DNA of 64,000 nt, from assembly GCF_900155645.1 (NCBI RefSeq), contig NZ_LT706985.1:1474051-1538050 (forward strand), in the 5' to 3' direction. The translations under genes were made by a program, and so were the position numbers. The notes under the pieces are model-generated. The model did not search any database. It worked only from the letters and a program-made list of their open reading frames with translations, and was not told the DNA's origin. Of the stretch, positions 36,621 to 55,180 are shown piece by piece (position 1 is the first letter of the stretch; every line of letters starts with the position of its first letter). The DNA comes from Vaginimicrobium propionicum (lineage in GTDB: Bacteria; Actinomycetota; Actinomycetes; Propionibacteriales; Propionibacteriaceae).

Positions 36621-36941
36621 TTAGCGCAATTCGTCAATCAGCTTTATTAGGCTGTTGCGGGTTTTGCCACCTTGGATGACCTTAACGACTTGGCCGTCCT
36701 TCCAAAACTGTAAGGTCGGCAAAGCCATCACGCCTTCACGCATTGCAATTGCGGGGTTAGCGTTCGTATCAAGCTTGACGAACTGTACCTCTGCTCCGTA
36801 TTTATCAGCCAATTCATCAATGATGGGGGAGAGCTGGCGGCAAGGCGCACACCAGTCAGCCCAAAAATCGACGACGGTCAATGTTTTGGAGCCTTTAACT
36901 ATCTCATCAAAATTCGCGTCAGTTACTTCTGATACAGCCAT
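36621..36941 (-). CDS. trxA: thioredoxin
   Basis: A 106-residue cytoplasmic thiol-disulfide reductant with the active site WCAPC near residues 31-35 and the cis-Pro in ALPTLQF. AGGAA lies 6 nt before the ATG at 36941; an ATG at 36947 abuts the ribosome site and is less likely. It sits 16 bp behind trxB, forming the reductase-thioredoxin operon. Confidence 0.95.
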   Translation of the reverse strand: MAVSEVTDANFDEIVKGSKTLTVVDFWADWCAPCRQLSPIIDELADKYGAEVQFVKLDTNANPAIAMREGVMALPTLQFWKDGQVVKVIQGGKTRNSLIKLIDELR

Positions 36942-36957
36942 AATCATTCCTTTTCTG

Positions 36958-37944
36958 TTATTCAGCTAAATAGTGCTCGGCGTCGAGGGCAGCCCTACAC
37001 CCGGTGCCTGCTGCGGTGATTGCCTGTCGATAGGTATGATCAACCAAATCGCCACAAGCAAAAACACCAGGCAGATTGGTTTTAGTGGTGGCACCCTCAG
37101 TAATCACATAGCCGGCCCCATCAATAGAAACTTGATTTTTTACCAAACCAGAGCGGGGCAAATGGCCGATAGCCTCAAATAATCCGCTAACCGCAAGCTC
37201 GCTTAATTCGCCGCTAACAGTGTTACGCAGCGTCAATGAAGCCAAAGTGGCGTCCCCACTCATGCCAACGACTTCGCTATTTAATGCCAACCGAATCTTC
37301 GGGTCAGCTTTTAGACGTTCCTGCATAATCGCAGAGGCTCGAAACTGGTCACGGCGATGGATGAGCGTCACGCTATTGGCAAAGCGGGTCAAAAATGTGG
37401 CCTCTTCGATAGCCGAATCTCCGCCACCAACTACAGCGATGTCTTTGCCACGATAAAAGAAACCGTCGCAGGTAGCGCACCAACTAACTCCCTTACCAGA
37501 GTAGGTTTCTTCATCAGGAATGTTGAGCTTTCGGTATCCGGAGCCCATCGCTAAGATAACGGCCTTTGCCTGGTAGCTGGCGCCATCGGAACTTGTTACC
37601 GTCTTTATTTTGCTTCTTAGATCGACAGCCACGACGTCATCAGTTATCAGCTCAGCGCCGAAACGCTCGGCTTGAACCTGCATATTGGTCATCAAATCCG
37701 GGCCAAGAATACCATCAGGAAAACCTGGAAAGTTCTCAACTTCGGTAGTTTTCATCAGCGCGCCACCGGCTTCAAGCTGGCCGGTGAAAACCAGTGGCTT
37801 GAGCTGAGCGCGGGCAGCGTAAATGGCGGCGGTATAACCAGCAGGTCCAGACCCGATAATAATGACCTCACGCAACGGCTGATCGGGTTCACTGGTTTGC
37901 AACTCAACATTTAGCTCAGTATTTAAGTTCAGTGCTTGAATCAT
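36958..37944 (-). CDS. trxB: thioredoxin reductase
   Basis: A 328-residue FAD/NADPH flavoenzyme that reduces thioredoxin. The FAD-binding [14 protein letters not shown], redox-active CATC (in [10 protein letters not shown]), NADPH-binding [10 protein letters not shown] and C-terminal FACGDL motifs are intact. About 20 extra residues precede the usual start. The 104-bp gap to the pseudokinase gene upstream can hold its own promoter; it contains two small hairpins but no clear consensus. Confidence 0.96.
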
Positions 37945-38048: not shown

Positions 38049-39719
38049 TTAACCCAGCGACATTTCTAATATTCCGGTGCGGAATTGTCCGTCCGCGATA
38101 GGGGGCAAATTAGTGAAATAAACCAATACCCACCTGGAAGTAATTTCCTCCTCCGAGTGCAATGTGACATCTGATCCGGCTTGTGGGACGGTAGCCACCA
38201 CCCGCCACTGGTTAACCGAGTCCATTGGTGCAGTTTCGGTTCCAGGATTTTCTGCTGGCACCATTAACTGCACATCAGCAGGTGAGGTTTCTAACAGCAA
38301 ATGCACGTCAGGTAGTTGAGTATCGCTACCAAGGTCAATCAGCAGGCCAGCACCAGGTTTAATATTTCCGAATTTCGAAGATCCGTAATACGTCCAAGTT
38401 TGCCAAGCCGTAGTTGAATCACCATCGGTGGCTAACGGCACCAGATCCTTCTGCTCATCATCATCACCGCCATCGGCTACAGGATCAAATACTCTGACGC
38501 TAGCGATAGTGGCAGTAGCCTCAGGGCTAGATGCCGTCTCAGGCTGGTTATGTTTCATATTTGCTGCTATTGCAACCCCGATAACTACTGCCAGGAAGAT
38601 CACTAAAACAGCTAGCCAACGGCCAATCAACTTGGTGTTCCAAGATAACTCATCACCTTGGGAAGGATACTGTTGGTCAGGCTTATTCGGTGACTCGTTC
38701 TTGATATCGCCTATCGGCTCACTAAACTCTGGGTTTTCCAGCATTGCGGGTAAAACGGGAACCACTTCGGTTGCCATGTCGTCCTGTTTGCCAGATTGAA
38801 TCTCGGTTACTTCGTCGAATTCACTGTGCTGGTCAGGCTTGAAATTGCGCATGCGCGATTCCAATTCCTCCATGGGCGTGTTGGGGCCAATAATCCGCTT
38901 CAAAGCGGCAGCTACCTCACCGCTGGTAGCAAAACTAACCTTTGCGTATTCGTGGATCAACAACATCATGGCGATCTTGTTTAATCCAACATGCGCGCTA
39001 GGACGTATCGACTGTGGATCAACCCAAGTCTGCTGACCGCCTGACCCTTTGAGGGGGGCAGCTGGCAAACCGCTCAAGCTGCGTTGTTCTTTTTCGGGAT
39101 CTATCGGTAGGCATCCAGTCAAACATGCGTAAAGCAGTATTCCTAGTTGACGCAGATCAGTGTTTTGTTGATCTGACCATCCGGCTTGCGGATTATCCTG
39201 ACTTATTGCCGCGTCCACCAAGAAACCAGTGATCTTGATATCTCCGCCTTCGGTAATGAACACGGAGTGAGGTCCAAGATGGCGATGAAATTTCCCGTTA
39301 GAGTGTGGAACCGACAGGGCTTCAGCTACTTGCTGGACGATATACGCCGATTCTGCATTGGTTAACGGTCCGTCCAAGAGTAATTGGGTCAAGGTCGACC
39401 CAGCCGGAAACTCGGTCGCTACGAAGGACAACAACTCTTGACCCTCAGCTTGTTTCGCGTCCAAAACTCGAATGAATCTAGGGTCTGGATTGGCAGCTGC
39501 TTGTCTGGCTGCCGCGAGAATGGTACCGGCTCTCGGATCTCCAGGACCCATCACATATAGCAGTACCGGTCGAGACAGGGAGGTGTCGATTGCCTGCCAA
39601 AGAAAAACACGAGCGCCATTTATTTCTTGGCCACGTTCGGTGAGAGCTTCAACCAATTCATATCTGGCGCCAAGCATCTGCCCTGGGGTAGGTCGCCAAA
39701 ACTGGTTATCACTCAGCAC
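38049..39719 (-). CDS. membrane pseudokinase with extracellular discoidin-like domain (MurJ-partner type)
   Basis: About 556 residues. The N-terminal half has a protein-kinase fold, but the catalytic motifs are lost: the HRD region reads HRHLGPHSVFI, the DFG region reads TGF, and no VAIK lysine is seen. A transmembrane helix (about 365-390) leads to an extracellular domain of about 170 residues with a discoidin/F5-8C-like pattern (ATDGDSTTAWQTW). Both halves resemble the C-terminal part of mycobacterial MviN (Rv3910), where they are fused to the MurJ flippase and the pseudokinase binds FhaA. Here that flippase part is missing. AGGAGG lies 6 nt before the GTG at 39719. Confidence 0.8.
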   Translation of the reverse strand: MLSDNQFWRPTPGQMLGARYELVEALTERGQEINGARVFLWQAIDTSLSRPVLLYVMGPGDPRAGTILAAARQAAANPDPRFIRVLDAKQAEGQELLSFVATEFPAGSTLTQLLLDGPLTNAESAYIVQQVAEALSVPHSNGKFHRHLGPHSVFITEGGDIKITGFLVDAAISQDNPQAGWSDQQNTDLRQLGILLYACLTGCLPIDPEKEQRSLSGLPAAPLKGSGGQQTWVDPQSIRPSAHVGLNKIAMMLLIHEYAKVSFATSGEVAAALKRIIGPNTPMEELESRMRNFKPDQHSEFDEVTEIQSGKQDDMATEVVPVLPAMLENPEFSEPIGDIKNESPNKPDQQYPSQGDELSWNTKLIGRWLAVLVIFLAVVIGVAIAANMKHNQPETASSPEATATIASVRVFDPVADGGDDDEQKDLVPLATDGDSTTAWQTWTYYGSSKFGNIKPGAGLLIDLGSDTQLPDVHLLLETSPADVQLMVPAENPGTETAPMDSVNQWRVVATVPQAGSDVTLHSEEEITSRWVLVYFTNLPPIADGQFRTGILEMSLG

Positions 39720-39729
39720 AGCCAACCTC

Positions 39730-40362
39730 CTAAAGTGCCCGCCGGGCGCGTTTCGGTTTCGTCTCGCTAGCTTCTGGAACTGAGTCGTACAACCAAGTTA
39801 AATCATCCATATCTTGTGTAGCTCGCCTGGCTCTTGCCTCAGGAACAGAAACGATCATTGTCATCTCGACGTCTGATTCTGCTGCTTGGGTATCTAGATC
39901 TTCGATTTGCGGCGTAGATTCTTCGGCTTCCGCGTTTTGCGTAGTCTCTTCAATATGGTCTGCCCCAGTATCCGATTCAGCATTTCGAACTGTTTCAATA
40001 ATGGCGGCGGCTAGACCTGAAACCCCGGCTATTGATAAGACGATTCGAGTGGCAGTAACTCGGCCACCAAGCAAATCGAATATTCCAAAACCAGCAACTA
40101 ACGCGAAAATCCCTACCACCGTCAGTGAAATCCATTGCGAGGCAGTGATTATTGGGTGGGTGCGTCCCGCCCCAGAAATCAACGCTTTAAGATGCCAAGC
40201 AGTCAGCGAGCCGCCGCAGATGATAGCCACCACAGCCACCACTTTCGACGCCTGGCCGTAGCTAGCCATAGCTATGCCAGAAATCAAAATGATTAGGGAA
40301 CTTGCCACTAATACAGCAAGCAGGATCGCCGTAATTATCAGCGGCCTAGATCGACGTGACAT
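39730..40362 (-). CDS. small membrane protein with acidic cytoplasmic tail, unknown
   Basis: A 210-residue protein with about four hydrophobic segments in the first 125 residues, then a strongly acidic segment and a basic C-terminus (KPKRARRAL). No family is recognised. It occupies the position where MurJ stands in related genomes but is far too small and unlike MurJ. GGAGGG lies before the ATG, and its stop codon forms part of the ribosome site of the pseudokinase gene 10 bp on, so the two are tightly coupled. Confidence 0.7.
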   Translation of the reverse strand: MSRRSRPLIITAILLAVLVASSLIILISGIAMASYGQASKVVAVVAIICGGSLTAWHLKALISGAGRTHPIITASQWISLTVVGIFALVAGFGIFDLLGGRVTATRIVLSIAGVSGLAAAIIETVRNAESDTGADHIEETTQNAEAEESTPQIEDLDTQAAESDVEMTMIVSVPEARARRATQDMDDLTWLYDSVPEASETKPKRARRAL

Positions 40363-40390
40363 ATTCCCTCCTGGCTATTCGTTATAAATG

Positions 40391-42295
40391 TTAGCGACCC
40401 AGTTTAGTTGCATTTTCAAACTCTTCCAGCTCAGCCTTATTGTGACGTCTGACCTGGCGTACCCGCCAAGCAGTGACTGTAAACAAGATGATGCTGGAAA
40501 TAATTATCAAAGCCCAACCCATAGCGCCAATGCGAGTGGCGTTAATGGTGAACTCAGTGGGCTGACCGATTAACTCGCCGTCTGCCAACGCAAGTTGCGC
40601 CGTCAAACGCACTGGACCGTTAGCTTTAGATTGCGGACTAACTCTAAGAGTCAACTGATCGCGGCCAGCTACCGTTACTAATTGCGAATCAGCTATCTCT
40701 ATGCGCTGGCTATTCGATGAGGTGAAAACAACCTTCACTTTTATTTGCTCAGGCATTGAGTTAACGATGGTAACTGGCAAAACGTTGTCTTTTTCAGCGG
40801 TAGTGACAGAATCTGTCACTCTGACCGCTAAAGCATTCGGATCATTGAGGGGGGCAGTCACCCCTAGAACTTGATTCAGCCAGCCGTTACGAGCCTGTTC
40901 GTCCTTAAAGTTGATAGACCAGAATCCAGAATGTAGATGAGTCAGGGTTTCTTTTAATTGCGAAAGTTGATCAGTCAACAACGCCCACTTCTCAACGCGC
41001 GAAGTTGCGTTGTCAAGCTCTTCGCTAAGCCCGGCAGCGTAGTTGGTGTCTAAAGTGGACGTCCATTGCGCCTGATTGGGGGTATCTGCACCCAAATTCT
41101 TAGAAACAGGGGACAGTTTTAACCAGGTGGGAGTGTGTGCAATGGTTTTAGCTGCCTGGGCTGAACGCACCAAAACGTTGACCGGATGGGCAGATAAGCC
41201 GCCGACTAATTGCTGGGCGCGTAGAGCGGTTAAGTCGGCAGGAGTAGTAGGAGCCTCGGTTATCGGCAAAATGGTGTTGCCGCTGGATGATATTCCACCA
41301 CTGGTATCCAACAGATCAGCAGAAATGTTAGCTGCCAGCAGTGCAGAAACGTTCTTTTCGCTCAGCCCGCCAGAAATCTCGTCCGAGCCAGCCAGAGCTT
41401 GTGGAACAACAAACAACGGCAAATCTGAAGTTAGGTCGAGTGAATCTGTCCTGGTCGCGTCGTCGAGAGTGGCCTGGTCGCCGGCAGTAATCAACCCACC
41501 AACGTCAACGCAATTATAAAGGCTACGGTAGGCATTGGGTTTCTTGAGCCTGGCCTTCAATCTTTCGATCCAGGATTTAGCCTCAGGAGTGTCCAGCAAT
41601 TTCACCTGATCTATGACGTTTGGGTCAACGATCACCCCAACATCCGGTTGTTCCGCTAATTTCAGTAGCGGTTCTAATGTCTCGTTGACTTGCTTATTCA
41701 TGACATCGGTATCGAATAGTTTCGGTTGCGACTTCAAGAAAGACATGGAATCTATGGCAGGCGTGGTGGTCAACAGCACAGTAGTTGTTGTGGGTAGCTG
41801 CTGGGTCAGATCAGGGTTAGCTATTGCTAATCTGCTAGCACCAGCCAGAGTTCCAGAAGAAAACACCTCTACCCCAACGCGATATGCAGTATTTGTGTTA
41901 TCCAACCACAAGGGGTCAACTGCCAACTGTGCATCCGTAGTGGCTAAAACCTTGAAGTTTCGAGTCTCACCAGGTGGTATTTCGCCGATGGTATAGGACG
42001 CTTGAGGCGCTTCGCTCAGAGCGCCGCCACGTCCAGCCGTCATCGCTAAATCGAGGCCATGAAATGTGGTTATTGGGGTTGCGTCCCGCCACAAGCTAGC
42101 GACCACGTCTTTAGCGCTAGTGTCACCCGAGTTGTGCACAGTGCCAGAAATAATCAAGTCACCCTTGTCAGCGAGCACTTGTGGAACGTCGGTGATAGTT
42201 ACCTCTAGGGTTACTTCGTCGCCGTAGGACGCCAAACATATCGGCTGACACAGCGTCAAGACTACGATAAGCAAGCAGATTAGGCGATACTTCAT
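40391..42295 (-). CDS. DUF6049 cell-envelope protein
   Basis: A 634-residue protein with an N-terminal signal peptide, a long extracytoplasmic region and one C-terminal transmembrane helix (ALIIISSIILFTVTAW) followed by a short basic tail. This layout and its place next to the MurJ-type pseudokinase match the actinobacterial DUF6049 family (like Rv3909), of unknown function but linked by position to wall synthesis. It lies 28 bp upstream of the small membrane protein. Confidence 0.8.
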   Translation of the reverse strand: MKYRLICLLIVVLTLCQPICLASYGDEVTLEVTITDVPQVLADKGDLIISGTVHNSGDTSAKDVVASLWRDATPITTFHGLDLAMTAGRGGALSEAPQASYTIGEIPPGETRNFKVLATTDAQLAVDPLWLDNTNTAYRVGVEVFSSGTLAGASRLAIANPDLTQQLPTTTTVLLTTTPAIDSMSFLKSQPKLFDTDVMNKQVNETLEPLLKLAEQPDVGVIVDPNVIDQVKLLDTPEAKSWIERLKARLKKPNAYRSLYNCVDVGGLITAGDQATLDDATRTDSLDLTSDLPLFVVPQALAGSDEISGGLSEKNVSALLAANISADLLDTSGGISSSGNTILPITEAPTTPADLTALRAQQLVGGLSAHPVNVLVRSAQAAKTIAHTPTWLKLSPVSKNLGADTPNQAQWTSTLDTNYAAGLSEELDNATSRVEKWALLTDQLSQLKETLTHLHSGFWSINFKDEQARNGWLNQVLGVTAPLNDPNALAVRVTDSVTTAEKDNVLPVTIVNSMPEQIKVKVVFTSSNSQRIEIADSQLVTVAGRDQLTLRVSPQSKANGPVRLTAQLALADGELIGQPTEFTINATRIGAMGWALIIISSIILFTVTAWRVRQVRRHNKAELEEFENATKLGR

Positions 42296-42311
42296 GGATA
42301 CCCCAATCTGG

Positions 42312-43769
42312 TTATCTTAGAGGCTCTGGATCCCCTAGAGCCCGCTTGTCATACCAGGCTAGCAAGAATGCTAGGAAAAGAATTACCAGAATGACGCCAT
42401 AGCCGATAGTTACAGCCAAGATCCAACCAGAAGCGACGAATGAAAAGACGATAGCTGTCAACATAGCGTTGCCAATAGCTGTAGCGGTGCGTTCGCAGGT
42501 TTGTTTGACGCCACCAGCAGTGCCGCCGACCGCTGGCGTCAATTCCAGCATGGATAGTGTTTGGTTTGCTGAGTTGAAAGCGCCGACGCCTAAACCGCAA
42601 AGAATGAGACTTAAGGCCAGCCACCAATAGCTGATAGTAGGCATGAATTGAATCAAGATGATTGTTGTCGCTATGCCTGCCATATAAATTGCTAAGGCGT
42701 GCATGGTCATAGTGCGGCCTTTGCGCAGTACTGAACGCCCGGCAACCATTGCTGCCAATGCAGACGCGATCGCGTTTGGTAGCCCGATGGAGCCAGCCAC
42801 TATGGCAGATGCACCTAAACCTTGTTGCAGAAATAACGCCAACAACACGAAAATGGAAGTGCCGCCAAGAAATTGCACGGTAGAAATAGCAGTCGCATTA
42901 GTGAATGATCGCGTTTTGAACAGATTTAGATTAACCATCGGTTCGCGTCCGCGCTTCAAATAATAATTTTCCCAACGAACCCAAATCACCATTAGCGCCA
43001 CACCGATAACCAGCAGTGTAAAAGACACCAAGGTTTTAATCATGAACGGCAACATGACGCACAACACGCACAACGCCAAAATGATCATGCCTAGCGGGTC
43101 GAGATCCAATTTTTCGGTTCGTTTTAGCCCAGCTTTACGGTTAGCGATAATTTTGCGTTCATTCTCAAAGGGTAACCAAGCTAGAGCCAAACCGATAGCA
43201 GCCAAACCCAGGGGAAAATTCCAAATAAACGAGGCACGCCAACCCCAGTCAGGGTCGAGTATTTGGATGAGTAGCCCGGTAATCAGCGGTGCCACCGCTA
43301 CGGCCACTGAAACTGTCAAACCGAATAGTGCGTTGGCGGTTGCTCTGGCTTGTCCCCGAAAATACTGGACGATCATCCCATTTGTTTGTGGTGCATATGC
43401 CCCCGCCCCCACTCCTTGTAGGAGCCGCAAAGTGTTCAGCCACATTGGGTCATCCACTAGCCCGCAAAGCAATGAGCAGACACTAAATATGGCGACCCCA
43501 GCAATATAGGTGACCCCGCGCCCAATGACGTCGCCGATTCGTCCAGCTGCGACCAAGAAAATGCCGAAACTAAGTGAATAACCAGACAGCAGCCATTGAA
43601 TGTCTGAGGGCGTAGCGCCGATGGAGGATTGAATAGCGGGCAGGGCAACATTTACAGAGCTGACTGACATTAGCACCATGGCTAGGGGAATCAGCAGAAC
43701 TATCATGATTTTTCGACGCGAAAATGTGCGGTCGACACCCTCAATGGTGATCACGTCATCATTACTCAC
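42312..43769 (-). CDS. MFS transporter, DHA2 (EmrB/QacA) type
   Basis: A 485-residue membrane protein with about 14 transmembrane helices, the count of the DHA2 drug/proton antiporter family. The loop 2-3 motif A reads GRIGDVIGRG, and motif C is present in a hydrophobic stretch with LLIQILDP nearby. The substrate cannot be predicted. It sits, unusually, inside the conserved pcnA-DUF6049 block, with 19 and 16 bp spacers, so it is an integral part of this operon. Confidence 0.85.
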   Translation of the reverse strand: MSNDDVITIEGVDRTFSRRKIMIVLLIPLAMVLMSVSSVNVALPAIQSSIGATPSDIQWLLSGYSLSFGIFLVAAGRIGDVIGRGVTYIAGVAIFSVCSLLCGLVDDPMWLNTLRLLQGVGAGAYAPQTNGMIVQYFRGQARATANALFGLTVSVAVAVAPLITGLLIQILDPDWGWRASFIWNFPLGLAAIGLALAWLPFENERKIIANRKAGLKRTEKLDLDPLGMIILALCVLCVMLPFMIKTLVSFTLLVIGVALMVIWVRWENYYLKRGREPMVNLNLFKTRSFTNATAISTVQFLGGTSIFVLLALFLQQGLGASAIVAGSIGLPNAIASALAAMVAGRSVLRKGRTMTMHALAIYMAGIATTIILIQFMPTISYWWLALSLILCGLGVGAFNSANQTLSMLELTPAVGGTAGGVKQTCERTATAIGNAMLTAIVFSFVASGWILAVTIGYGVILVILFLAFLLAWYDKRALGDPEPLR

Positions 43770-43788: not shown

Positions 43789-45291
43789 CTAAGTGTTTTG
43801 TTGTTGCCACCAAGACAGCAAGGCCTGTTTTGCCGTTTCAGGGTCGAGGGGACCTTCGTCCAAGCGAAGGCTCAACAGATATTTGTATGCCTTTCCTACT
43901 ACTGGACCAGGACCGACACCTAGAATTTCCATGATTTCATTGCCATCAAGATCAGGCCGGATGGCATCCAATTCTTCTTGAGCCATCAATTCGTCAATGC
44001 GGAATTCTAGTTCATCGTAGGCGCGTCTTAGCCGATCGGCTTTGCGTTGGTTACGGGTTGTGCAGTCGGAACGCGTCAAAATGTGCAGACGCTCCAATTG
44101 GTCGCCGGCATCGCGGACATAGCGGCGCACCGCAGCATCCGTCCAGCCATTCGAGGCTCCACCAGAAGAACCTTCGGCATAACCGTGAAAACGCAAGTGC
44201 AGGGCAATGAGTTTCGTTACTGCTTCGACTATGTCTTTTGAGTAGCGCAAGGCGTGTAACCGTTTACGCACCATTCTTGCGCCAACTACATCATGATGGT
44301 GAAAAGTGACCTTACCGTTTTCAAAGGCGCGAGTGCGCGGTTTGCCAATATCGTGCAACAGCGCGGCGATACGCACAACTAAATCTGGTTGGTGATTGGG
44401 GTTTGGCTTACCGTTCACATAATCGCGAGACTTTTCTAATGCGATTGCATGGTCTAGAACAGTTAATGAATGCTCGTAAACATCCTTGTGGCGCATGTGC
44501 TCGTCGCGTGTCAACCGCATCGCAGGCAATTCCGGCAAGACGCGGTCGGCCAGTGTCGACCAAACCAAAAGATCCAATCCGGCACGCGGATTGTCGGTTA
44601 ACAGTAACTTACTTAATTCGTCCCGCACTCGTTCAGCAGAAATAATGTCAATGCGTTCAGCCATTGACTTCATGGCATCCCTGGTTTCTGAGTTGACTTG
44701 AAAACCCAGTTGGGACGCGAAACGAGCCGCCCTCATCATGCGCAGCGGGTCATCAGAAAAACTTATCTGTGGCTTAGTCGGTGTTTTAATTATTTGGTCA
44801 GCTAGATCTTCAAAACCGCCTAAGGGATCAACGAACCGCCACCCATTAGTCGTTGCAGCGCTGACGTCTAAAGCCATAGCGTTGACGGTGAAGTCGCGAC
44901 GGACAAGGTCTTCTTCTACTGATTGACCGAATTTTACGTCTGGTTTTCGCGAGTCAGCGTGATAAGAGTCAGCTCTAAAAGTGGTTATCTCAACTTGCCA
45001 GGGGGTAGGTTTTGCGTCCAGGTTTGCAGAGATTGTGCCGAATTGTTTGCCGGTTTGCCAGATTTCGTTAGTTACTTTGCGCAGCAATCTTTCGGTTTCG
45101 TCAGGTTTCGCTGAGGTGGTGAAATCTAGGTCGTGACCTAAAACGCCCAGCAGAGCGTCGCGCACACTGCCGCCCACCAAATAAAGTTGGTGTCCGGCGT
45201 TACTGAATACTCGGCCGAGGCTGTTTATCGTCTCGGCGGCGGGTAACAGTGCAGTTAGGGCGCGTAATTGTTCGTTATTAGGCACAGTCAT
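43789..45291 (-). CDS. pcnA: CCA tRNA nucleotidyltransferase
   Basis: A 500-residue nucleotidyltransferase that adds or repairs the CCA end of tRNAs, needed here because tRNA-Ile does not encode CCA. The head domain has LVGGSVRDALLG (38-49) and metal acids in HDLDF (53-57). RRDFTVNAMA follows, and an HD domain (LLHDIGKPRTRAF) is fused C-terminally. The position next to the MurJ locus is conserved in actinobacteria. Confidence 0.93.
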   Translation of the reverse strand: MTVPNNEQLRALTALLPAAETINSLGRVFSNAGHQLYLVGGSVRDALLGVLGHDLDFTTSAKPDETERLLRKVTNEIWQTGKQFGTISANLDAKPTPWQVEITTFRADSYHADSRKPDVKFGQSVEEDLVRRDFTVNAMALDVSAATTNGWRFVDPLGGFEDLADQIIKTPTKPQISFSDDPLRMMRAARFASQLGFQVNSETRDAMKSMAERIDIISAERVRDELSKLLLTDNPRAGLDLLVWSTLADRVLPELPAMRLTRDEHMRHKDVYEHSLTVLDHAIALEKSRDYVNGKPNPNHQPDLVVRIAALLHDIGKPRTRAFENGKVTFHHHDVVGARMVRKRLHALRYSKDIVEAVTKLIALHLRFHGYAEGSSGGASNGWTDAAVRRYVRDAGDQLERLHILTRSDCTTRNQRKADRLRRAYDELEFRIDELMAQEELDAIRPDLDGNEIMEILGVGPGPVVGKAYKYLLSLRLDEGPLDPETAKQALLSWWQQQNT

Positions 45292-52669: not shown

Positions 52670-55180
52670 ATGACTTATGGTCGCTCGAGCACCGGCATTG
52701 CCGGTTTGGACGAAATGCTGGACGGTCTGCGGGCGGGCGATTGCGTGGTTTGGCAAGTTGAAGATCTTGAACTCGCGACTGAGATTTTCGCACCCTTTGT
52801 TCAGCATTCGCTAACTAGCTCAACTCCGGTCTGCTATTTGCGATTTGGCACCAATGAGCCGTTGATCGCTTCTGGAGCAGAAATCATTGATCTTGACCCA
52901 CGTGTGGGTTTCGAAGGTTTTACATCCGCCCTAAATCGGGTAATTGTTAGCCACGGCTCTAGGGTTGCCTATATTTTTGACCCGCTGTCTGAGCTTGTTA
53001 CTGCTTGGCGTTCAGATTTAGCGGCAGCTAATTTTTTCCGCGTCACTGTCCCTTATCTTTTTCAAGCCAATGCGATCAGTTATGTGCCCATGATTGCTGG
53101 CGCTCACACCTTTGCAACTAGAACAACCATCTCGGATTGTGCTCAAGTGCTGGTGGATGTTCAACGCGTTTTAGGTGAACCAATTTTTCATCCCCTTAAA
53201 GCCTGGCTTCGGGACTTTAAGAGCGGCTTTTATCGAATATCTGGTCACCAAGTTGAAGATCTTAAAATAGCTGCTGGTGATAGTCCTAAGGATTATTGGC
53301 AGCAGGTTTCTGAGCGCGGCTATGCGGCGTTAACAAGCGGAGATGACGCCGAAGTCACTAAGGTGCGGCATGAATTGATAGATATGATGCTCAGCCGTGG
53401 CGGTAAATTAGAGGATTTTTGTCGTCGTTTCATGTCCTTGCCTGATCTGTTGGAATTAGCTTCGCGCGAAATTGGCACTGGATTCATTGGTGGCAAATCA
53501 GTCGGCATGCTGGTTGCTCGAGCGATTCTAGAAGCCGATGAAAAAGATCGTTTTACTAAACATCTGGAGCCACATGACTCATATTTCTTAGGCTCTGATC
53601 TATTTTTTCTTTATATCATCGCTAACGGTTGGTGGCCGCTTTGGGCTGAGCAGAAAACTCCGACCGGCTATTTCACTGTTGGCGCGCAACTTCACGAAAG
53701 ATTGTTGGACGGCAAGTTTCCGCCCCAGGTGCGTTCACGATTTATCAAAATGCTCGAATATTATGGCCAAGCGCCGATAATTGTGCGTTCTAGTTCACTG
53801 CTAGAAGATAACTTTGGTAATGCTTTCGCTGGTAAATATGATTCGGTATTCTGCACGAATCAAGGTGATATAGCCACCAGGCTGCGAGAATTCGAGAATG
53901 CAGTGCGCACCGTCTACGCATCGATTATGGCGCCAGACGCGTTGGCCTACCGCCGTAATCGCGGACTAGATAAATCTAATGAGCAGATGGCTATCCTTAT
54001 CCAACGTGTTTCTGGTTGCCTGCACGGTGATTACTTTTTCCCGCACGCTGCCGGTGTCGGTAATTCCAGCAATATCTACGTTTGGGATGCCCGCCTCAAC
54101 CCCGAGGCAGGCCTGTTGCGGCTGGTTTTTGGGTTAGGCACTCGCGCTGTTGACCGCACACTGTCTGATTATCCTCGGTTAGTGGCATTAGATGAACCTA
54201 CCCTGCCAGTTGATGTGCGCGACCCTTCCAGCCATTCTCAACGCTATGTTGATGTTCTTTCGCTAGCCAAAGGTGATTTGGTGACTGTTCCGCTAGTCGA
54301 TTTGGTGGACACAGATATTGGCGCTGATTGGTCATTATTTGCCTCACCGGATCACCAAACGATCACTAGATTCCGTCAGGCTGGACGTAAACTCGCCAAA
54401 ACCCCAAAGCTGCTTGATTTCAATAAACTGCTCACCACAACGGATTTTGCCGAGACGATGCGGGCAATTTTGACGAAACTACAAGCGGCTTACGACTACC
54501 CGGTAGACATCGAATACACGGTCAATATCGACACTGACGGAAATCCAAAGATAAATATCGTCCAATGCCGTCCACTGCAAACCAGCGGTTTAGGTTCCAG
54601 AATTTCTATGCCAACCCAAGTGTTTGCTGAAAAGCTGCTAATCAGTCAGCATGGTAATTTCATGGGCGGCAATGTGTGCCAGCAAATTAAATATGTCATT
54701 TTGGTGCGCGCTAAAGAATATCTTTCTTTGTCACAGCAAGATCGTTATGGTGTCGCCCGTGCTATTGGACGCCTGAATCAGCGACTAAAAGGTGTGCCAT
54801 TCATGGTTGCAGGTCCGGGAAGATGGGGTACCACTACGCCGTCTCTCGGAGTGCCGGCTCATTTCACGGAGATCTCCAATGCAGCAGTGCTGGCAGAATT
54901 CACCTATCCACAAGGCAATTTCCGTCCAGAGCTAAGTCAAGGTAGTCATTTCTTCCAAGAGATTGTCGAGCAAGGCACGTTCTATCTGGCGTTATTCGCT
55001 CAGCGAAAAGATGTCATTTTTAACACTGAAATGCTGACTAGCCGTCCTAATGAGCTGACCAAGATCGTCCCAGAATTAGCTGGCCTGGCTGAAGTGCTCC
55101 ACGTCGTCTCATTCGAGGACTTGACCCTCTACTCTGACGTCACTACTCAACAAGTGATCTGCTGCAGGCCTGGCCACTAA
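52670..55180 (+). CDS. degenerate KaiC-like domain fused to PEP-synthase-type ATP-grasp domain
   Basis: An 836-residue protein. Residues about 6-190 resemble a KaiC/RadA-like ATPase (STGIAGLDEMLDGLRAGD), but the phosphate-binding loop that should follow is lost. Residues about 270-660 match the N-terminal ATP-grasp domain of PEP synthase and pyruvate phosphate dikinase, with GGKSVGML, VRSSSLLEDNFGNAFAGKYD and the closing QCRPLQ. There is no phospho-His swivelling domain (GGxxSHxA) and no PEP-binding barrel, so it cannot be a full PpsA. About 180 C-terminal residues have no recognised fold. It stands alone; the function is unknown. Confidence 0.7.
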   Translation: MTYGRSSTGIAGLDEMLDGLRAGDCVVWQVEDLELATEIFAPFVQHSLTSSTPVCYLRFGTNEPLIASGAEIIDLDPRVGFEGFTSALNRVIVSHGSRVAYIFDPLSELVTAWRSDLAAANFFRVTVPYLFQANAISYVPMIAGAHTFATRTTISDCAQVLVDVQRVLGEPIFHPLKAWLRDFKSGFYRISGHQVEDLKIAAGDSPKDYWQQVSERGYAALTSGDDAEVTKVRHELIDMMLSRGGKLEDFCRRFMSLPDLLELASREIGTGFIGGKSVGMLVARAILEADEKDRFTKHLEPHDSYFLGSDLFFLYIIANGWWPLWAEQKTPTGYFTVGAQLHERLLDGKFPPQVRSRFIKMLEYYGQAPIIVRSSSLLEDNFGNAFAGKYDSVFCTNQGDIATRLREFENAVRTVYASIMAPDALAYRRNRGLDKSNEQMAILIQRVSGCLHGDYFFPHAAGVGNSSNIYVWDARLNPEAGLLRLVFGLGTRAVDRTLSDYPRLVALDEPTLPVDVRDPSSHSQRYVDVLSLAKGDLVTVPLVDLVDTDIGADWSLFASPDHQTITRFRQAGRKLAKTPKLLDFNKLLTTTDFAETMRAILTKLQAAYDYPVDIEYTVNIDTDGNPKINIVQCRPLQTSGLGSRISMPTQVFAEKLLISQHGNFMGGNVCQQIKYVILVRAKEYLSLSQQDRYGVARAIGRLNQRLKGVPFMVAGPGRWGTTTPSLGVPAHFTEISNAAVLAEFTYPQGNFRPELSQGSHFFQEIVEQGTFYLALFAQRKDVIFNTEMLTSRPNELTKIVPELAGLAEVLHVVSFEDLTLYSDVTTQQVICCRPGH

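Follow-up and report, generated by a model that had tools for sequence, protein, structure and literature searches.

Gene organization of the locus

The window analyzed here is a stretch of 64,000 nucleotides from the genome of Vaginimicrobium propionicum. The genes relevant to the present study are all located on the minus strand and are distributed as follows.

36621-36947, minus strand: trxA, conserved flank
36958-37944, minus strand: trxB, conserved flank
38049-39725, minus strand: stand-alone MviN-type pseudokinase of 558 aa, assigned from an Rv3910 profile match and the pseudokinase tree
39730-40362, minus strand: small membrane protein (SMP) of 210 aa, with about 4 TM helices and an acidic tail
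40391-42295, minus strand: DUF6049 protein, canonically the upstream neighbor of murJ (PF19516, E 7e-15)
42312-43769, minus strand: MFS transporter, between pcnA and the DUF6049 gene (PF07690, E 1.4e-42)
43789-45291, minus strand: pcnA (CCA/poly-A polymerase), conserved flank

Read along the minus strand, the order is pcnA, MFS, DUF6049, SMP, pseudokinase, trxB and trxA, and no MurJ is present between pcnA and trxA. This agrees with the original prediction, in both gene order and positions. The canonical actinobacterial order, pcnA / DUF6049-murJ-pseudokinase-trxB, in which MurJ and the pseudokinase are adjacent or fused, recurs in dozens of other genomes, and the absence of murJ is therefore real rather than a chance observation. 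The place vacated by murJ is occupied by the SMP gene. A misassembly was considered and ruled out, as the genome is one contig with a completeness of 99.95% and the same split recurs in many genomes. Elsewhere in the window (52670-55180), an ORF of 836 aa was noticed by eye as an unusual fusion, starting like a KaiC/RadA-like ATPase and continuing in its later part like a PEP-synthase/phosphotransferase.

The MurJ of V. propionicum

In almost every bacterium examined, MurJ is an essential protein. The genome of V. propionicum comprises 2,010,679 bases in a single contig, and the genome-wide search that had been proposed for MurJ returned one full-length protein, encoded about 320 kb away from the pseudokinase. 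It is the only match above the Pfam cut-off (PF03023, C1:1191344-1192699, E 4.5e-68), with 228.8 bits against a cut-off of 27.4 and an alignment covering positions 4-437 of the 451 of the model. The gene encodes 546 aa and is located directly downstream of lysC. In a sequence search, its product also matched the solved MurJ structures 5t77 (E 4.8e-17) and 6cc4 (E 1e-13). Judged by these similarities, it is a full-length member of the MurJ/MviN family and a predicted lipid II flippase. A second PF03023 match, below the cut-off, corresponds to an open frame of 438 aa that looks like a MATE-type transporter.

Distribution of the split in Propionibacteriaceae

The family was sampled with 117 genomes, and the positions of MurJ and of the pseudokinase could be compared in 103 of these. 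Both are linked in 66 genomes, mostly as one fused gene, although unfused neighbors are present in some members (G088, G057). They are apart in the other 37, a set from which G037 should be removed since it has another linked copy; the split hence concerns about 36 of 103 genomes, with the reservation that drafts may look split through contig breaks. The comparison with relatives that had been called for thus establishes that the split is not peculiar to one genome. It follows genera, 11 in number (g1, g4, g8, g11, g13, g16, g20, g25, g26, g27 and g29), and in the 15 genomes where both genes are found on one contig the gap separating them ranges from 44 kb to 2.7 Mb. Adjacency of lysC and murJ was observed in about 25 of the loci fetched for the family, including those of Cutibacterium namnetense, Propionibacterium australiense, Acidipropionibacterium timonense and Aestuariimicrobium kwangyangense.

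Origin of the lysC-linked MurJ

MurJ phylogeny was addressed with a tree of 101 rows and with a careful tree of 42 rows, the latter being also used for the approximately unbiased (AU) test. The native fused MurJ proteins of Propionibacteriaceae form a clade (100/98) that joins f2, a family of the same order (100/100). The lysC-linked MurJ is placed inside a group of Intrasporangiaceae/Dermacoccaceae/Dermatophilaceae type (100/97), the other members of which are mostly encoded at their own DUF6049-pseudokinase locus.

Two explanations that do not involve a recent transfer were weighed against this topology. The first is a plain relocation, in which a rearrangement carried the native murJ from the DUF6049 locus to lysC. 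Such an event would fit a genome with no murJ at the locus and one murJ elsewhere, and one genome of the split genus g8 (G007) does carry a native-type MurJ away from its pseudokinase. However, the lysC-linked MurJ stands apart from the native proteins, and constraining both to group together lowers the log-likelihood by 261 units (p-AU 8e-59). With the model applied, this test refutes relocation in the case of the lysC clade, and we give that scenario almost no credence. The original prediction had left open whether the flippase had moved elsewhere or been replaced: replacement holds, by the foreign MurJ behind lysC, and displacement of the native gene to another site is rejected by the AU test.

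The second is hidden paralogy, namely the presence of two MurJ in an old actinobacterial ancestor followed by differential retention. Two MurJ do coexist in the large genomes of family f20 (which group with Streptomyces), in genus g12 and in some Intrasporangiaceae. Yet the lysC copies nest among MurJ located at the native DUF6049-pseudokinase locus of Dermatophilaceae-type genomes, so that many parallel losses would be needed, and a single MurJ match was obtained in all 10 of the 10 genomes sampled from the same-order family f2. Hidden paralogy is consequently regarded as improbable.

Genus g12 has kept the fused native MurJ-pseudokinase and additionally harbors an acquired MurJ, broadly of the type found behind lysC; having both copies plausibly represents an intermediate state. 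The acquired copy of g12 groups with the MurJ of G197 type, and the AU test mildly rejects (p-AU 0.02) a single acquisition common to this genus and the lysC clade. The trees support at least one transfer of MurJ, and two appear plausible. In both the lysC tree and the pseudokinase tree, the split genera do not strictly form one clade. A close copy is also encoded by Phycicoccus endophyticus, which has a divergent second MurJ in addition.

Several other arrangements were encountered in the course of the comparison. The acquired MurJ of g12 is inserted at varying sites and is found, in G051 (L057, 2602-6791), directly behind yidC-jag-rsmG. The native-type MurJ of G007 (L074, 775-5861) lies downstream of lysC with two genes between, unlike the rest of the clade, and these two genes are read from their sequences as MurT- and GatD-like (lipid II amidation). 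In four loci of Intrasporangiaceae type (L150, L153, L157 and L161), a MurJ is located away from the DUF6049 locus, mostly in addition to a divergent MurJ; MurJ seems to have been exchanged between actinobacterial families more than once.

The stand-alone pseudokinase

The model of the pseudokinase displays a kinase-like domain (residues ~12-290), a disordered linker (298-364), a TM helix (365-392) and a C-terminal extracytoplasmic beta domain (409-557). In the alignment, the catalytic Lys (VAIK), the HRD Asp and the DFG Asp are all lost, HRD and DFG being replaced by HRHLGPHS and TGFLVD. A profile search retrieved the intracellular domain of Rv3910 (3otv/3ouk/3uqc/3oun, E 8e-27), with PknB and PknA scoring higher. 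Foldseek matched the model to 3otv (E 3.7e-13) and 3uqc (E 7.2e-13) as well as to the active kinases PknB and PknA, and kinases were the only matches listed by VIA-align. The MviN-type pseudokinase family has been designated ActPs3 (PMC12599244). The open reading frame includes no MurJ and hence does not encode a mycobacterial-style fused MviN.

In the pseudokinase tree, 41 of 41 Propionibacteriaceae sequences are gathered in one clade (100/98) next to f2. The solo pseudokinases nest among the fused ones, with a support of 96/88 after the g21 branch and of 79/92 for the solo sequences as one side of a branch. Because it is nested among the fused MurJ-pseudokinases of the family, the solo pseudokinase is, from this tree, native to Propionibacteriaceae. 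The N-terminal extensions of the solo proteins contain no hydrophobic segment (maximum Kyte-Doolittle value 0.31), and therefore no MurJ helix remains.

The solo pseudokinase could be viewed as a non-functional relic in decay: the flippase once attached to it has been lost and, in Mycobacterium, cells can dispense with the pseudokinase domain of MviN but not with MurJ (PMC6180346, PMC10166564). By analogy with this dispensability, the role of the pseudokinase may perhaps be modest. Against decay, the open frame is intact in the split genomes examined, although the draft of G041 reads as two overlapping pieces, and the columns of both the kinase and the beta domains are conserved. Pairwise dN/dS is well below 1, at 0.08-0.36 for solo and 0.28-0.50 for fused pseudokinases, these values being rough since dS approaches saturation for several of the pairs. 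They argue, roughly, for purifying selection on the solo pseudokinases, and we consider a functionless relic to be unlikely, about to the same degree as hidden paralogy.

The linkers of solo pseudokinases are also rich in T-x-[VILM]-[VILMF] motifs, with 12 seen for 2.6 expected, compared to 3 for 3.8 in fused and 6 for 2.6 in adjacent pseudokinases; as the motif was picked post hoc and the sequences are related, this is a lead only.

In M. tuberculosis, PknB phosphorylates the pseudokinase domain of MviN, to which FhaA then binds (Gee et al. 2012, cited in PMC10166564 and PMC6180346; see also PMC12599244). The search for FhaA-like proteins that had been advised was positive: the V. propionicum genome encodes FhaA, which carries a DUF3662 and an FHA domain, together with an adjoining FhaB-like FHA protein. 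A PASTA open frame of 609 aa is found about 6 kb from these genes and is PknB-like by position only.

The SMP and MFS neighbors

The SMP or the MFS transporter had been proposed as the new partner of the pseudokinase, and either could also be imagined as a replacement flippase. The SMP gene is indeed placed immediately upstream of the pseudokinase gene in V. propionicum and at the same place in G025 (L017:5675-6535), and a conserved stretch of its tail, EMTMIV, resembles a phospho-Thr motif by eye. Several observations stand against this proposal. The genome already has a MurJ. The SMP is beside the pseudokinase locus only in these two genomes; in genus g16 its relatives are encoded at a distance from the pseudokinase, in most cases adjoining a helicase gene, and that helicase intervenes between SMP and pseudokinase in G025. 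The MFS gene is common to the locus in V. propionicum, G025, the g16 genomes and G066, a subset of the split genomes, and is missing at the locus in several others, e.g. in genus g13. Most split genomes have neither SMP nor MFS at the locus. A role of the SMP or the MFS transporter as flippase or partner is accordingly judged very improbable, more so than hidden paralogy.

The g16 helicases are 69-74% identical to that of G025. Since the g16 relatives of the SMP mostly adjoin a matching helicase, the SMP seems to have arrived together with a helicase block. No helicase of this G025/g16 type was found in the V. propionicum genome, in a search run without a positive control.

The SMP has no Pfam match, and modeling from the single sequence gave a poor result (pLDDT 56). 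A MurJ fold hidden in this protein of 210 residues had been envisaged and was ruled out, on account of its size and of its hydrophobic segments, which number about 4 versus the 14 TM helices of MurJ. The acidic tail of the SMP holds two stretches conserved between V. propionicum and G025, EMTMIV and MDDLTWLYD, which are possible phospho-Thr or FHA sites.

Proposed history

The reading we favor, and hold to be probable, is a xenologous displacement with domain fission: of a once fused gene, the flippase half gave way to a foreign MurJ and the regulatory half persisted. The DUF6049 locus of the clade's ancestor would have harbored MurJ and the pseudokinase as one fused gene, the fusion dating from the stem of the family. 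A second, unfused MurJ would then have been gained from an Intrasporangiaceae/Dermatophilaceae-like donor, and is located behind lysC in the clade of V. propionicum. The native flippase half would subsequently have been lost, leaving no remnant of its membrane helices, and the half composed of pseudokinase, TM helix and beta domain would have been kept as a gene of its own. The displacement is supported by the trees and by gene order, and we infer the fission from the nesting of solo among fused pseudokinases.

According to this history, the acquired MurJ would perform the essential flipping of lipid II, and the freed pseudokinase would remain a PknB/FhaA-linked regulator of wall synthesis, acting in trans. 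The separate MurJ and pseudokinase proteins of Micrococcales and Streptomyces presumably behave in this way. Contacts of the solo pseudokinase with the new MurJ, with FhaA or with any peptidoglycan enzyme are hypothetical. A bolder version, in which the freed pseudokinase is autonomous, controls the foreign MurJ or another target via FhaA and gained phospho-Thr docking motifs in its linker, is put forward as a tentative and rather doubtful extension.

Relation to known systems and significance

MviN of M. tuberculosis (Rv3910) consists of MurJ fused to a pseudokinase, a TM segment and an extracytoplasmic domain. The V. propionicum protein resembles it by its ActPs3 family, by the domain order that follows the flippase and by the presence of FhaA in the genome, and differs from it in that the flippase half is missing from the gene and a separate foreign MurJ is found behind lysC. 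The fused genes of other Propionibacteriaceae (L033, L034, L105-L124) possess a homologous pseudokinase half at the same locus but, unlike V. propionicum, retain the native MurJ half. The unfused murJ-pseudokinase pairs of Streptomyces, Micrococcaceae and Intrasporangiaceae encode separate proteins, as in V. propionicum; these pairs are adjacent and native, whereas that of V. propionicum is unlinked and its MurJ acquired.

Previous work noted a 'protein kinase family protein' encoded behind mviN genes that lack the extension (PMC10166564 S6), and stated that the MviN extension is confined to organisms possessing an arabinogalactan layer (PMC10166564). Fused MurJ-pseudokinase genes were found here in Propionibacteriaceae and also in Bifidobacterium, Actinomycetaceae and Cellulomonas, the loci outside Propionibacteriaceae being from Bifidobacterium, Buchananella, Varibaculum, Cellulomonas bogoriensis and Ornithinimicrobium (L177, L185, L166, L188, L165 and L158). 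Such fusions outside arabinogalactan organisms, as identified from sequence, disagree with that statement.

No earlier description of a MurJ displacement with survival of the pseudokinase was found in the literature searched. The history proposed here would be one in which a foreign copy took over from an essential flippase, and the regulatory domain fused to that flippase outlived it. Culturable genera with the split, such as Cutibacterium and Propionibacterium, would provide a natural experiment on whether the MviN pseudokinase requires physical attachment to its flippase.
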